Part shown: in pieces, positions 6,258 through 9,695 of the stretch
Layout: every line of letters begins with the position of its first letter
Numbering within the stretch: position 1 is the first letter of the stretch
Source: a virus
DNA length: 21,091 nucleotides
Direction: 5' to 3' (one strand)
Virus record (IMG/VR): IMGVR_UViG_3300030110_004626
Span: 1-21,091 of that record
Notes under the pieces: generated by a model
The model's database searches: none
Seen by the model: only the letters and a program-made list of their open reading frames with translations
Told to the model about the DNA's origin: nothing
Position numbers and translations under genes: made by a program

Positions 6258-7637
6258 CTATCCGGCCTCAAACGTGGCGCGGTTGAGATGGTGCAGCAAA
6301 TAGCGAAGCGCGTCCATGCAGTGATCGTCCCTCTTGAGGGGGCGCTCCTTCTGGTCTGCCTTGCTGCGGCGCGTGTCCCAGACGTAGCCCTCGATCTCTC
6401 TGATGACGTTGACACAGTTCGAGTGCACGACGAGGTGAGGCCTGCCCTCTGCGTCTGGTGCCAGCCTCTCAGCGACTGAGCTGATGCCGGCTCGAATCTC
6501 CTTCTTCGCCTTGACTGTCGGCATGTCGTGGTCTCTCGCCATCGAGATACGCGAGCCCCTGTCTTCTGGGTCTGCCACGATGACAGCCGGCTCCCCGTAC
6601 TCGGAGAACATCTTGCGCAGCGCTGTGACGTGGCGTGATAGCGTCCACTCAGACTGTAGATGCTCGGCGATAATGTGCACCACGTCATCGGCAGGGTCGA
6701 CCGCTGCGAGCAGAGCCGCAAACGGGTTGCGTACGCCGAAATCAATCCCACATAGTCGAGTGAAGTGCTCTGGTACCTCGAAGGGCTCGACGACGTGAAG
6801 CTCTCTGCTCCAGTCCTGATAGACGCGACCTTCCAGCTGCGTGAACTCACCACGGGCGCGGGCTGCCTTCTCATGGCTGCCATAGCTCGCCAGGATGATC
6901 TCAAGCTCATCGCGTGGGATGTGGGGATTGTCGGCGCCGTGGATCCACTTGCACAGGCTCCCGGGCTCTGGGTCCTTGACGAATCGATCCCAAATCCACG
7001 TCAGCCCTCGAAGGGGTGTCATAGTGATCAGGCACCGCCCCCGCTTATCCACGAGACGCATGCGGGCCTCATTGAAGACGGCCTCATCTTCTGGGTCCTC
7101 ATCGAAGAGAGCCGCATCCCATGCGTCAGCCTGGAAGCTTCGAGCCCCCTGGTCTACCGTCTTGAAGAGGACAACGCCCCCGTTCGGTAGCTGTGCGACT
7201 GCCTCACCTGCTCCGTGCCTGTTCTTCCAGTATGTACCCACCGGAAGGAACTGCTCGACCTTGGGACGCTGGACTCTGATCGATTCGTTTGACGTCAGCG
7301 AGATGCAGCACACTCGGCCCGGCCTCTTGTAGATCGCGTCTTCTGGGATGCCGTTGTCCCTCATCCACTTAGCGACGCCAGGACTCCCACGCCCCAGAGC
7401 GATGGCCGCCGCTATCATTGCCCCCGCTTCGGACTTGCCTGAGCGGTTGCCACCCACGAGCAGACCCACCTTGACCCGCCGATCCATCAGCGCCTGGACC
7501 GAGCGCTTCTGTGATGTGCGCGGGCTCGGCCTGTCCCAGAGTGCGCGAAAGGCGAGCGGATAGAGCTCTAGAAGCCGCTGGAGCTTGATCGCGGCCTCAT
7601 ACCCCTCGGCTATCAGCTCGGAGCGCTCAGGAGCCAT
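6258..7637 (-). CDS. Terminase large subunit (packaging ATPase and nuclease)
   Basis: 459 residues, normal for TerL. The ATPase half has Walker A GGNRSGKS (62-69), Walker B ALFDEDP with Asp179/Glu180, and the coupling motif LITMTPLRG (~203-211). The RuvC-fold nuclease half has Asp299 (CGIDFGVRNP), Asp356 (VIVADPEDRGS) and Asp437/438 (RDDHCMDALRYL). It pumps DNA into the prohead through the portal and cuts the concatemer. It overlaps the small subunit gene by 11 nt; GGCGAGG lies directly against the ATG, so initiation probably depends on coupling. It is followed by element P1 rather than by the portal gene. Confidence 0.95.
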   Translation of the reverse strand: MAPERSELIAEGYEAAIKLQRLLELYPLAFRALWDRPSPRTSQKRSVQALMDRRVKVGLLVGGNRSGKSEAGAMIAAAIALGRGSPGVAKWMRDNGIPEDAIYKRPGRVCCISLTSNESIRVQRPKVEQFLPVGTYWKNRHGAGEAVAQLPNGGVVLFKTVDQGARSFQADAWDAALFDEDPEDEAVFNEARMRLVDKRGRCLITMTPLRGLTWIWDRFVKDPEPGSLCKWIHGADNPHIPRDELEIILASYGSHEKAARARGEFTQLEGRVYQDWSRELHVVEPFEVPEHFTRLCGIDFGVRNPFAALLAAVDPADDVVHIIAEHLQSEWTLSRHVTALRKMFSEYGEPAVIVADPEDRGSRISMARDHDMPTVKAKKEIRAGISSVAERLAPDAEGRPHLVVHSNCVNVIREIEGYVWDTRRSKADQKERPLKRDDHCMDALRYLLHHLNRATFEAG

Positions 7638-8049
7638 CCTCGCCCGCTTTGCCTGCCTTGAGTGCCTCGGCCACCTCTGCGACCTTGGCGATCAAGTCCT
7701 CGGCACCTTCGAGGCTGTCATCAGACGCGCCGACCTTGACCTCTTGCCTCTGGCTGTACCCGTACCGGCGTTCCATAATCCAGCCCGCAGCCTGCCACTG
7801 TCCGCCCTCCGCAGCCTTCTGGATTCGCCCCATACACTGCGCCGCACACAGACCCTCAGCCGCCTTTACTGCTGCCGAAAAGTCCGAATAGATGCCCTCT
7901 ACCTCGTCCTTCCCTTTCTGCATCCACAGGCTGAACGTGGACATCGAGACACCTGCATAGGACGCGGCGAGCTTGTAGGTAAGACCAAGCCGCAGCCCAT
8001 CGATAAATCGCTTCTGTGTCTCTGGTGTCAGTTTAGTCGGTCGTCCCAT
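7627..8049 (-). CDS. Terminase small subunit
   Basis: 140 residues from the ATG at 8049, chosen for its Shine-Dalgarno GGAGGTG 5 nt upstream; the longer frame lies in the preceding gene. The N-terminus is a helix-turn-helix of the type seen in small terminases (MGRPTKLTPETQKRFIDGLR, then TYKLAASYAGVSMSTFSLWMQKGK). It is followed by helices matching the oligomerisation region (AAVKAAEGLCAAQCMGRIQKAAEGG, WQAAGWIMERRYGYSQRQEVKVG). It recognises phage DNA and loads TerL. The start overlaps the end of the Mom-like gene by 17 nt. Confidence 0.88.
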   Translation of the reverse strand: MGRPTKLTPETQKRFIDGLRLGLTYKLAASYAGVSMSTFSLWMQKGKDEVEGIYSDFSAAVKAAEGLCAAQCMGRIQKAAEGGQWQAAGWIMERRYGYSQRQEVKVGASDDSLEGAEDLIAKVAEVAEALKAGKAGEDGS

Positions 8050-8818
8050 CTGGCACCTCCAAAGATGGAGCGACAGGGTCGGAGTTGCACCGCCGAGTCC
8101 CTGCTGGAGTGCAGGGGTCATCTACATGCTGCCGCGTTATCTTCTCGCCCTTATACATTTTGGCGTCATCGGGAATCTTCGAGAAGGGTATCACGGGAAC
8201 CGTTAAGCGATCGGCCCAAGCTGGATCGAGAAACTTGATATATCGAAGCTGGTAGCCAGGGAGGCGAACAGCGCCTGACCGCTTTACCCAAACTGAAAAC
8301 GATTCGACGCCCTTGTTGAAGCCGTATTTCCGCTGAATTCCTGAGCCGGTATTCATCCCGACATTTGTGACTACTACACCATCAGGCATTCGATAAAGTC
8401 CGCTGTTCACCTTGACTGCGGTAAGAACAAACCCTGTGGCGCGATAGATGGCCCCATCTCCGCACTGCGTGGCGTCAGAGTATGACAAGACCCACTTAAT
8501 ATCAGGGCGATGCTTCCGAATCATGCGAAACGCCACACCCAACGCCCTGCTCTCGCTATTCCTCGGCAGGGCTTCAGAGAAGGCCATACGGTTAAGCTCC
8601 ATCATGCCTTGCCACTCTGTCCCGGTTACAAGCGGCATCACTTTGCGCTGGTCAAGCGGTGGACCGAATTGCATAGCCCCTTCGAGTTTGCCCGCGTAAA
8701 AGACGCCTAAGCTAAGTCGCCTCTTGTAGTAAGTTTTTCCAGAATAGTGGTGCCTTCTCACTACTTCGTCGGCAATTTTGTCTGCCACTGGTCTGACAAC
8801 GATTCCTTTTGCGCTCAC
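8033..8818 (-). CDS. Mom-like DNA modification protein (putative adenine modification)
   Basis: 261 residues starting with GTG, overlapping the ParB-like stop as GTGA. It matches the Mom-like family I know from phages: EVVRRHHYSGKTYYKRRLSLGVFY (22-41 region), GAMQFGPPLDQRKV (48-60), ELNRMAFSEALPRNSESRALGVAFRMIRKH (74-103), VLSYSDATQCGDGAIYRATGFVLT (110-133) and LPGYQLRYIKFLDP (186-199). The prototype, Mu Mom, is a GNAT-fold enzyme that converts adenines in phage DNA to a methylcarbamoyl form and protects against restriction. The same chemistry here is inferred. The C-terminal ~60 residues look disordered and may be poorly conserved. A ParB-like partner gene directly upstream supports an anti-restriction/modification role. 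Confidence 0.82.
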   Translation of the reverse strand: MSAKGIVVRPVADKIADEVVRRHHYSGKTYYKRRLSLGVFYAGKLEGAMQFGPPLDQRKVMPLVTGTEWQGMMELNRMAFSEALPRNSESRALGVAFRMIRKHRPDIKWVLSYSDATQCGDGAIYRATGFVLTAVKVNSGLYRMPDGVVVTNVGMNTGSGIQRKYGFNKGVESFSVWVKRSGAVRLPGYQLRYIKFLDPAWADRLTVPVIPFSKIPDDAKMYKGEKITRQHVDDPCTPAGTRRCNSDPVAPSLEVPDGTTD

Positions 8819-9456
8819 TTTAATTTACCCGTGAGGAAGGTCTCGCAGATTCGAGATAGCGCGTTTCCGTTGCCGTTCTCGTTTCCTGTATCCCCATAGT
8901 CACCCATATCTTTCGCTTGAGCTATTGCCGCTCTGACCTGCTCAACCTGATCATCATGGAGCGTGAATGTCATGGTCTGAATCGGAGCACGGTCACCCTC
9001 CGGCAGGCCCGCGAGAGCATCCCCCCACTCGTCGGAGCCTACCGCATCGATTCCGCGAACGATGAGATCAAGCTCGTCCTCATCCCAGCCGAGCCCGCCG
9101 AGGTCCATCCCGTCTTGCTCAAGCTCTGCGAGGACTTGCCCTAAGGTCTCATCGTCCCAGGTTGCGATCTCTCCAATCTTATTATCCGCCAGAGCGAGCG
9201 CAGAGGCTAGCTGCTCGTCGATGTCGAGGAAACGCACTGGCACATCCTCCAAGCCCAGCCTGAGGGCCGCCGCAAGCCTCGTATGCCCTGCTATGACTCT
9301 CCCGTCAGCAGTCCTCGCGACAATGGGCGACGCAAAGCCGAATCTCTCAATAGACTTCGCGACCTCGTCGATCGCTGCTTCATTGTGCCGGGGGTTCTGA
9401 TTCCACGGCGTGAGACTGCTGGGGTCTACATAAACCGCCGCTGCTTCTTTCTCCAT
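8815..9456 (-). CDS. ParB-like nuclease-domain protein
   Basis: 213 residues from the ATG at 9456, set by the start-associated sequence GAGGAGCGACACATC. The N-terminal ParB/Srx-type domain is clear: LTPWNQNPRHNEAAIDEVAKSI (15-36), GFASPIVART (40-49), GRVIAGHTRLAAALRLG (52-68) and VPVRFLDIDEQLASALALADNKIGE. Such domains bind CTP or nucleotides in ParB proteins; in phages they often sit next to DNA methylases or Mom-like genes. The second half is acidic (TWDDETLGQVLAELEQDG, GWDEDELDLIV) and the C-terminal part may be structural. It overlaps the Mom-like gene by 4 nt, so the two are probably co-translated. Confidence 0.87.
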   Translation of the reverse strand: MEKEAAAVYVDPSSLTPWNQNPRHNEAAIDEVAKSIERFGFASPIVARTADGRVIAGHTRLAAALRLGLEDVPVRFLDIDEQLASALALADNKIGEIATWDDETLGQVLAELEQDGMDLGGLGWDEDELDLIVRGIDAVGSDEWGDALAGLPEGDRAPIQTMTFTLHDDQVEQVRAAIAQAKDMGDYGDTGNENGNGNALSRICETFLTGKLK

Positions 9457-9479
9457 GATGTGTCGCTCCTCTCTCTGGA

Positions 9480-9695
9480 TTATTCTACTGCGGCCTCTTT
9501 GGCTGCTGCGGCCTCTTTGGCTGCTGCATGGCCGGCGCACACCTGACCGCAATAGTCTGACGGCGCCTCTTCTCCGTAGTGCTTCCACTGCATCCCACAC
9601 CATGCGCACTTCGCGACGATGTAGTCGGGCGGGGCCTCGACTGCGGGCTCTGGTGCGGGCTTAGCGGCTTTGGTCGTCTTCTTCTTCGAAGGCAT
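9480..9695 (-). CDS. Small Cys-rich putative zinc-binding protein
   Basis: 71 residues. Shine-Dalgarno GGAGAT precedes the ATG at 9695. It has a Lys/Ala/Pro-rich, probably disordered N-terminus (PSKKKTTKAAKPAPEPAVEAP), a possible zinc site CAWC-x13-CGQVC with a nearby His, and an Ala/Lys/Glu helical tail made of a duplicated AAAKEA unit, encoded by two perfect 18-bp tandem repeats (9488-9505 and 9506-9523). It lies directly upstream of the ParB-like/Mom-like pair. In Mu the small zinc protein Com activates mom translation; a comparable role is only speculation since no sequence similarity to Com is evident. Confidence 0.75.
   Translation of the reverse strand: MPSKKKTTKAAKPAPEPAVEAPPDYIVAKCAWCGMQWKHYGEEAPSDYCGQVCAGHAAAKEAAAAKEAAVE

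Follow-up and report, generated by a model that had tools for sequence, protein, structure and literature searches.

Genomic organization of the Mom-ParB locus

The viral sequence IMGVR_UViG_3300030110_004626 from IMG/VR, analysed here over its positions 1 to 21,091 (21,091 nucleotides; hereafter the window), carries a gene for a Mom-family DNA-modification enzyme that is coupled to a gene for a ParB-like protein and that contains, in its 3' end, a short element resembling a glycine tRNA (tRNA-Gly). The mom and parB-like open reading frames (ORFs) share a 4-nt GTGA overlap and terminase genes lie downstream, all on the minus strand (Table 1). Together they form a contiguous ParB-Mom-tRNA-Gly-like module whose parts are conserved together. 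An earlier interpretation of this DNA made from its letters (the sequence-only reading) had described a GTGA-coupled ParB-like/Mom-like pair just ahead of terminase, and both ORFs were found in place, with matches to PF25680 and PF02195. It had combined this pair with a small Cys-rich gene upstream into a three-part module; the Mom and ParB part stands, the Cys-rich gene probably does not belong with it (see below), and the tRNA-Gly-like element went unmentioned there.

Table 1. Features of the module and adjoining terminase genes in the window.
Feature	Position	Strand	Description
Mom-family GNAT DNA-modification enzyme	8033..8818	minus	261 aa, GTG start; PF25680, phrog_1384, fold match to Mu Mom
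tRNA-Gly-like element, 70 nt	8066..8135	minus	within 3' end of mom (residues 228-251); covariance models R1, R2
ParB-like protein	8815..9456	minus	213 aa, ATG at 9456, stop at 8815; PF02195, phrog_620
Cys-containing ORF, 71 aa	9480..9695	minus	no family match
Terminase small subunit (TerS)	7627..8121	minus	phrog_4102, E 6.4e-25
Terminase large subunit (TerL)	6258..7637	minus	PF03237, PF17289

Structure and covariation of the tRNA-Gly-like element

The window element consists of an acceptor stem (GCGGCAG/CTGTCGC, with G1-C72 and C2-G71) followed by U73 and an encoded CCA, an anticodon-arm hairpin whose loop holds TCC, and a T-arm of the form GGCGG-TGCAACT-CCG(A)CC, with no clear D arm. The marks of tRNA-Gly are present (7-bp acceptor, U73, CCA end and NCC in the anticodon-arm loop); because the cloverleaf is incomplete and standard tools are silent, we class the element as tRNA-Gly-like and not as a tRNA gene. 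Covariance models R1 and R2 scored it at 50.7 bits (E 3.5e-9) and 60.1 bits (E 3.7e-11), respectively. In its predicted fold the window copy forms the acceptor and the anticodon hairpin, but its T arm is altered; for another copy (L157), the minimum free energy structure is a cloverleaf whose T stem carries a bulged A.

Alignment of the post-mom region in seven sequences revealed a DNA block conserved irrespective of reading frame, which in Psychrobacter phage Y8A (vB_PmaS_Y8A) is located past the mom stop. This cultured phage has two tandem elements after mom (L007, 7656-7723 and 7728-7796). The window element lies within the mom ORF, where residues 228-251 are the only codons that it spans, and the predicted Mom model has a mean local confidence score (pLDDT) of 40-59 at residues 221-250; because the element codes only for these weakly modelled residues, the C-terminal tail of Mom seems to be a side product of the RNA sequence. 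Tails and starts such as RRCNSDPVAPS, GGADPTPALH and GGATPTLSLH in Mom relatives and window ORFs are frames of the element. The first 24 residues of the annotated TerS ORF are likewise read-through of it, and TerS translation probably begins at the ATG at 8049.

Among the 127 elements listed from the pattern scan described below, 120 have a fully pairing acceptor partner (7/7, G-U allowed) 39 to 48 nt upstream. An ungapped 76-nt alignment with D arm (25 sequences) has 93.3% paired cells and double changes in 16 of 21 pairs, and an ungapped 69-nt alignment without D arm (13 sequences) has 99.6% paired cells and double changes in 11 of 18 pairs; for both, 0 of 500 shuffles reach the observed score and paired cells. 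Acceptor covariation is partly by construction, because the loose finder selected for acceptor pairing (at least 6/7); the anticodon and D stems were outside that selection. The RNA covaries as a tRNA.

Association of the element with mom in viral genomes

The loose finder recovered 42 of 79 loci with narrow spacing and 71 of 79 after widening, with 2 matches in 606 kb of shuffled sequence, and was followed by the covariance models. R1 and R2 were run on both strands over 91 sources (699,622 bases) that included Mom-selected loci, the 80 nearest to the window Mom. Each model gave 77 matches, one per locus (two in Psychrobacter phage Y8A) and on the same strand as Mom, with no match elsewhere in the 699,622 bases. 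The element stands directly 3' of mom in 73/73 IMG/VR Mom loci searched (51/51 nonredundant), and in most loci it lies inside mom or at its edge. The 16 named-phage loci (L008-L023) contain it only once, in Salinibacter phage B2_17, where the depositors annotate a tRNA-Gly.

A scan of IMG/VR with a T-arm/acceptor DNA pattern, blind to Mom, listed at least 119 loci with 127 elements. Mom adjoins the element in 106 of these loci, 5' of it in 76 and 3' of it in 30; this two-sided count supersedes a one-sided one that considered 5' Mom only (85/127). In the other 13 listed loci, five elements lie no more than 250 nt from the contig end on the 5' side and two have a Mom 1.0-1.3 kb upstream; the remaining six are considered below.

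The element in bacterial genomes and integrated islands

A GTDB-based genome scan that left the acceptor and N73 free identified 29 places, of which 24 form a 6-7-pair acceptor; U73 is present in 24/24, and a Mom lies near 14 of them. Among the remaining places, L223, L239 and L248 are without Mom and look like chance, L234 is cut off, and L240 is degraded yet adjoins Mom. A Mom was found in 16/24 genomes behind the bacterial element loci versus 0/14 control genomes. In Chloroflexi the gene order is element-mom-parB. In four Bacillota metagenome-assembled genomes (L227, L229, L244, L250), the elements are nearly identical, have 5' halves of the GCGGCGTTGGTGCAAG type and lie partly beside unrelated genes, with no Mom in reach; these may be mobile copies or remnants.

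Within the class Dehalococcoidia, Mom was found in 11/197 genomes and R1 matches 118/197. The top eight R1 places are all near a Mom: seven lie within about 25 nt of it, six of these immediately upstream and one 24 nt downstream, and the eighth is 491 nt upstream. ARAGORN identifies the following 18 loci as host tRNA-Gly (18/18), even with up to six other tRNAs in the locus; the virus-trained model therefore recognises tRNA-Gly. The element was found in 10/15 Dehalococcoidia-class Mom loci searched. In Dehalococcoides, 16 modules of ssrA-integrated islands have been described with ParB, Mom and a tRNA-Gly-like locus in mom (PMC3146451). That locus measures 76 bp, lies within the first 150 bp of mom and has a DCC anticodon in a 5-nt loop. 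These islands differ from the window in being integrated and in carrying the element 5' in mom, whereas the window element is at the mom 3' end. In their section on likely roles, the island authors draw no link between the tRNA and Mom chemistry (PMC3146451).

Glycine identity is kept while decoding features decay

Glycine identity was assessed on 60 distinct elements from Mom-selected loci. Because CGC and U73 were preset in the viral pattern, the identity counts given here come from the Mom-selected loci or the free genome scan. U73, G1-C72 and C2-G71 each occur in 60/60 elements and G3-C70 in 55. CC at positions 35-36 is present in 53/60, with five elements not parsed; the finder is blind to CC, which provides a check on the CC-requiring parser. 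Bacterial glycyl-tRNA synthetase (GlyRS) and the cell recognise tRNA-Gly by marks of this kind, U73 among them. U73 is present in 231,855 of 232,109 bacterial tRNA-Gly and rare in most other bacterial tRNAs, with tRNA-Cys as the main exception (PMC6097841).

Features used in decoding have decayed: U33 is found in 15/60 elements and a TTC T-loop in 4/60, the T stem has a bulged A in 60/60 (that A is among the 17 positions scored by the finder), and most Mom-linked copies are too short for a D arm. Both U33 and the T loop matter for tRNA use in translation. Judged by its sequence, the element is one that retains glycine identity and loses decoding features. A comparable case is known from Staphylococcus aureus, where a dedicated, non-proteinogenic tRNA-Gly with altered G18G19 and weak EF-Tu contacts supplies glycine to the non-ribosomal transferases FemXAB, although the acceptor is peptidoglycan and not DNA (PMC4052509).

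The Mom enzyme

The window Mom matches Pfam PF25680 with 152.1 bits against a curated cut-off of 27.1 (E 2.1e-44) and phrog_1384 with E 9.5e-41, and its GTG start is backed by relatives starting M.(S)AK. The predicted model (pLDDT 86.2) aligns with the solved Mu Mom structure (8bv8_A) over 200 residues (Z 21.6, root-mean-square deviation 4.1), with general GNATs ranking next among the matches listed (Z 11 to 13.5). The sequence-only reading had tied its proposal to a GNAT fold, and a Mom/GNAT fold is what the comparison returned. The Ser of the RNSESR motif (window S90, Mu S124) is invariant across 57 aligned Moms, and Mu Mom S124A is inactive according to the title of a PDB entry. The window and Mu proteins share family, fold and this motif, with 32% identity over the aligned residues; Mu differs in having com upstream of mom and in lacking both ParB and a tRNA-Gly-like element adjoining mom. 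Distant Moms of other element-linked clades also belong to PF25680 (4/4 tested, E 2e-38 to 4e-47).

Other arrangements were also seen around mom. One locus (L041, 2-2498) has two tandem mom genes, then a gene named by eye as PAPS-reductase-like and an element, before a ParB-methyltransferase-like ORF. Mom adjoins a type II restriction enzyme in a Synechococcus phage (L022, 3424-4594) and a DNA methyltransferase in Polaribacter and Pantoea phages (L016, 3143-4654; L023, 3279-4552).

The ParB-like partner and the upstream Cys-containing gene

The ParB-like protein matches ParB_N PF02195 with 34.4 bits against a cut-off of 26.3 (E 2.2e-8), and also phrog_620. Its model (pLDDT 89.9) combines a ParB_N/sulfiredoxin-fold N domain, which aligns with Noc 7ng0 over 92 residues (Z 14.6, root-mean-square deviation 1.5), and a conserved C-terminal domain (MTFTLHDDQ...NENGNGNAL), for which no convincing structural match was listed with the whole protein as query (best Z 3.4). 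In 83/83 Mom-selected IMG/VR loci, a count that includes duplicates of a few contigs, Mom is immediately preceded by a ParB match on its own strand, within 21 nt in 82 of them. Among the at least 119 element-selected loci listed, 107 have Mom, and 67 of those 107 have ParB upstream. The pairing is not chance. It is also not universal, since the same test finds ParB directly upstream in only 1/16 named-phage Mom loci. The order in Psychrobacter phage Y8A is ParB, Mom, TerS, TerL; its published description annotates ParB and, as Mom, a different gene, ORF69 (PMC10434257), and the database record has the Mom next to ParB as a hypothetical protein.

In one locus (L005, 5364-8536), the gene after Mom encodes a ParB-methyltransferase fusion whose ParB part is identical to a Mom-partner ParB at 124/157 positions, which looks like domain exchange between modification enzymes. 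Because of this fusion and a match of the window ParB to phrog_498, annotated as DNA methyltransferase, ParB appears to be a module that DNA-modifying enzymes can exchange, and we infer that it loads or guides them. In named phages, the ParB C-terminal domain occurs in eight records, seven of them Vibrio phages; the one locus inspected among these (L251) has no nearby gene annotated as Mom.

The proposal of a probable DNA-modification module is well supported in its Mom and ParB core by the Pfam matches, the fold match to Mu Mom and the conserved coupling. The sequence-only reading had gone further and likened the 71-aa Cys-rich protein upstream to the Mu regulator Com. The ORF exists, but the protein has no Pfam match up to E 1, hence no Com family match, and no phmmer match in any locus collected, and a CxxC-type small ORF lies upstream of ParB in only 2/66 loci. 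We reject a Com-like regulator as a conserved module part on this lack of family match and conservation; the ORF is probably not part of the module, and the version that joins it to the ParB-Mom pair, for which the ParB-Mom coupling speaks, is very unlikely.

A glycyl-tRNA as putative donor for Mom

The modified nucleoside of Mu is alpha-N-(purin-6-yl)glycinamide, as named in the title of Swinton 1983 in the reference list of PMC3146451. We propose that Mom probably takes its glycine from a dedicated, translation-averse glycyl-tRNA and not from glycyl-CoA, with ParB as a DNA-loading partner. Host GlyRS would charge the element RNA with glycine; EF-Tu and the ribosome would make poor use of the charged RNA, given its abnormalities at U33 and in the T loop, T stem and D arm; and the GNAT-fold Mom would take the glycyl group from this RNA to adenine N6 of phage DNA. 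A glycyl group would add C2H3NO, a mass equal to that of the known glycinamide, and if the alpha-amino group then migrated to C6 within the molecule, the product would be precisely alpha-N-(purin-6-yl)glycinamide. ParB would serve the modifying enzyme as a DNA clamp or loader driven by nucleotide, and Mu-type Moms, without the element, would draw on host glycyl-tRNA. Concerning the donor, the evidence from the RNA speaks for glycyl-tRNA.

Several observations weigh against a glycyl-tRNA donor. The Mom-selected loci, being nearest to the window Mom, are a biased sample, and the element is not beside Mom in 15/16 of the named-phage loci, Mu included. Six of the at least 119 listed element loci are without Mom and away from contig ends (L033, L080, L095, L114, L126, L132); one of these has a PF22559 phage GNAT and a ParB-like ORF (L126), another a C5 methyltransferase (L095) and a third an N6/N4 methyltransferase about 1 kb on (L114). 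In bacteria, 10/24 elements have no Mom nearby in the examined stretch. In the window itself, ARAGORN gives 0 tRNA calls and Rfam 0 matches at gathering score, the folding of the element is unexceptional relative to shuffles (z -1.71), and one transcript cannot yield both the processed tRNA and the full mRNA, because the element is inside the mom ORF. Beyond Mu Mom, the structural matches listed for Mom comprise CoA-type GNATs and related enzymes, with no known aminoacyl-tRNA enzyme at the top; that no known aminoacyl-tRNA transferase is listed we take as no evidence either way.

The published prediction is an acyl-CoA donor for Mom, such as glycyl-CoA (PMC7824862), and the tRNA-like RNA could then be a cis control of the mom/terminase mRNA, acting through RNase P/Z processing or translation. 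The GNAT fold, for which the nearest structures are CoA enzymes, is in keeping with that donor, and the position of the element, which in most loci lies inside mom or borders it, with that control. A structural RNA, however, needs no U73, NCC or G1-C72, yet these are kept while the remainder drifts; moreover, the side of mom on which the element lies differs between clades (3' or 5'), and in Psychrobacter phage Y8A it is past the mom stop. We regard this explanation as improbable. That the element is a supplementary translational tRNA-Gly is more doubtful still and indeed highly improbable: a few copies do pass as tRNA (L198 at the Rfam tRNA gathering score, L277 as tRNA-Gly (tcc) by ARAGORN), but the decay of U33, T-loop, T stem and D arm described above opposes this role, as does the restriction to a single amino acid tied to mom. 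An ordinary tRNA is rejected for the window on the negative ARAGORN and Rfam results, L198 and L277 being exceptions elsewhere.

The location just before TerS in the window and many phages, and before terminase-like genes (by eye) in four of the Mom-less loci (L033, L080, L095, L132), would also fit a packaging (cos/pac) or attachment site that borders mom by chance near terminase. Against this stand the compensatory tRNA pairing, unneeded by DNA sites, the element-mom-parB order in Chloroflexi, and the Dehalococcoides islands, in which the element is inside mom, integration is at ssrA and none of the six genes listed for the integration module is a terminase (PMC3146451); we give such a site very little credence.

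A possible wider class and implications

Two loci without Mom combine the element with another GNAT: L126 (12970-14184) has a PF22559 phage GNAT-like protein, a ParB-like gene and a tRNA-Gly-like element, and in L228 (5287-7918) a fusion of a PF22559 GNAT with a DAM-like domain (PF22555) is accompanied by a ParB-like gene and an element. PF22559 GNAT loci are possibly a second tRNA-fed DNA modifier. The L126 enzyme led to 16 loci, a set in which L126 itself recurs. A strong element is confined to L297-L300 among them; L312 shows two lower-scoring matches (45.6 and 33.5 bits) that may be genuine tRNA genes, and the single L228 relative is without element. Because few relatives have a strong element, we keep the wider claim as a hint. 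A phage DNA base bearing glycine is also known from CmoX/CmoY, which produce 5-carboxymethylcytosine-glycine; that system differs in using ATP-dependent amide ligation of free glycine onto a cytosine derivative, with no tRNA donor (PMC12783734).

In the literature found, the Mom donor has so far only been predicted, as glycyl-CoA (PMC7824862), and no paper linking glycyl-tRNA to Mom was found in open-licence PMC text. That a dedicated glycine tRNA accompanies mom in distant viruses and islands alike suggests a glycyl-tRNA donor, which can be tested at the bench. The element provides a sequence tag for finding phages of this kind, and C-terminal tails such as RRCNSDPVAPS or GGADPTPALH should be treated in annotation as its read-through. 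On balance, it is somewhat probable that Mom enzymes are aminoacyl-tRNA-dependent DNA modifiers for which phages and islands encode a translation-unfit glycyl-tRNA in or beside mom, with PF22559 hinting at a wider class. If true, this would join translation chemistry with DNA modification.

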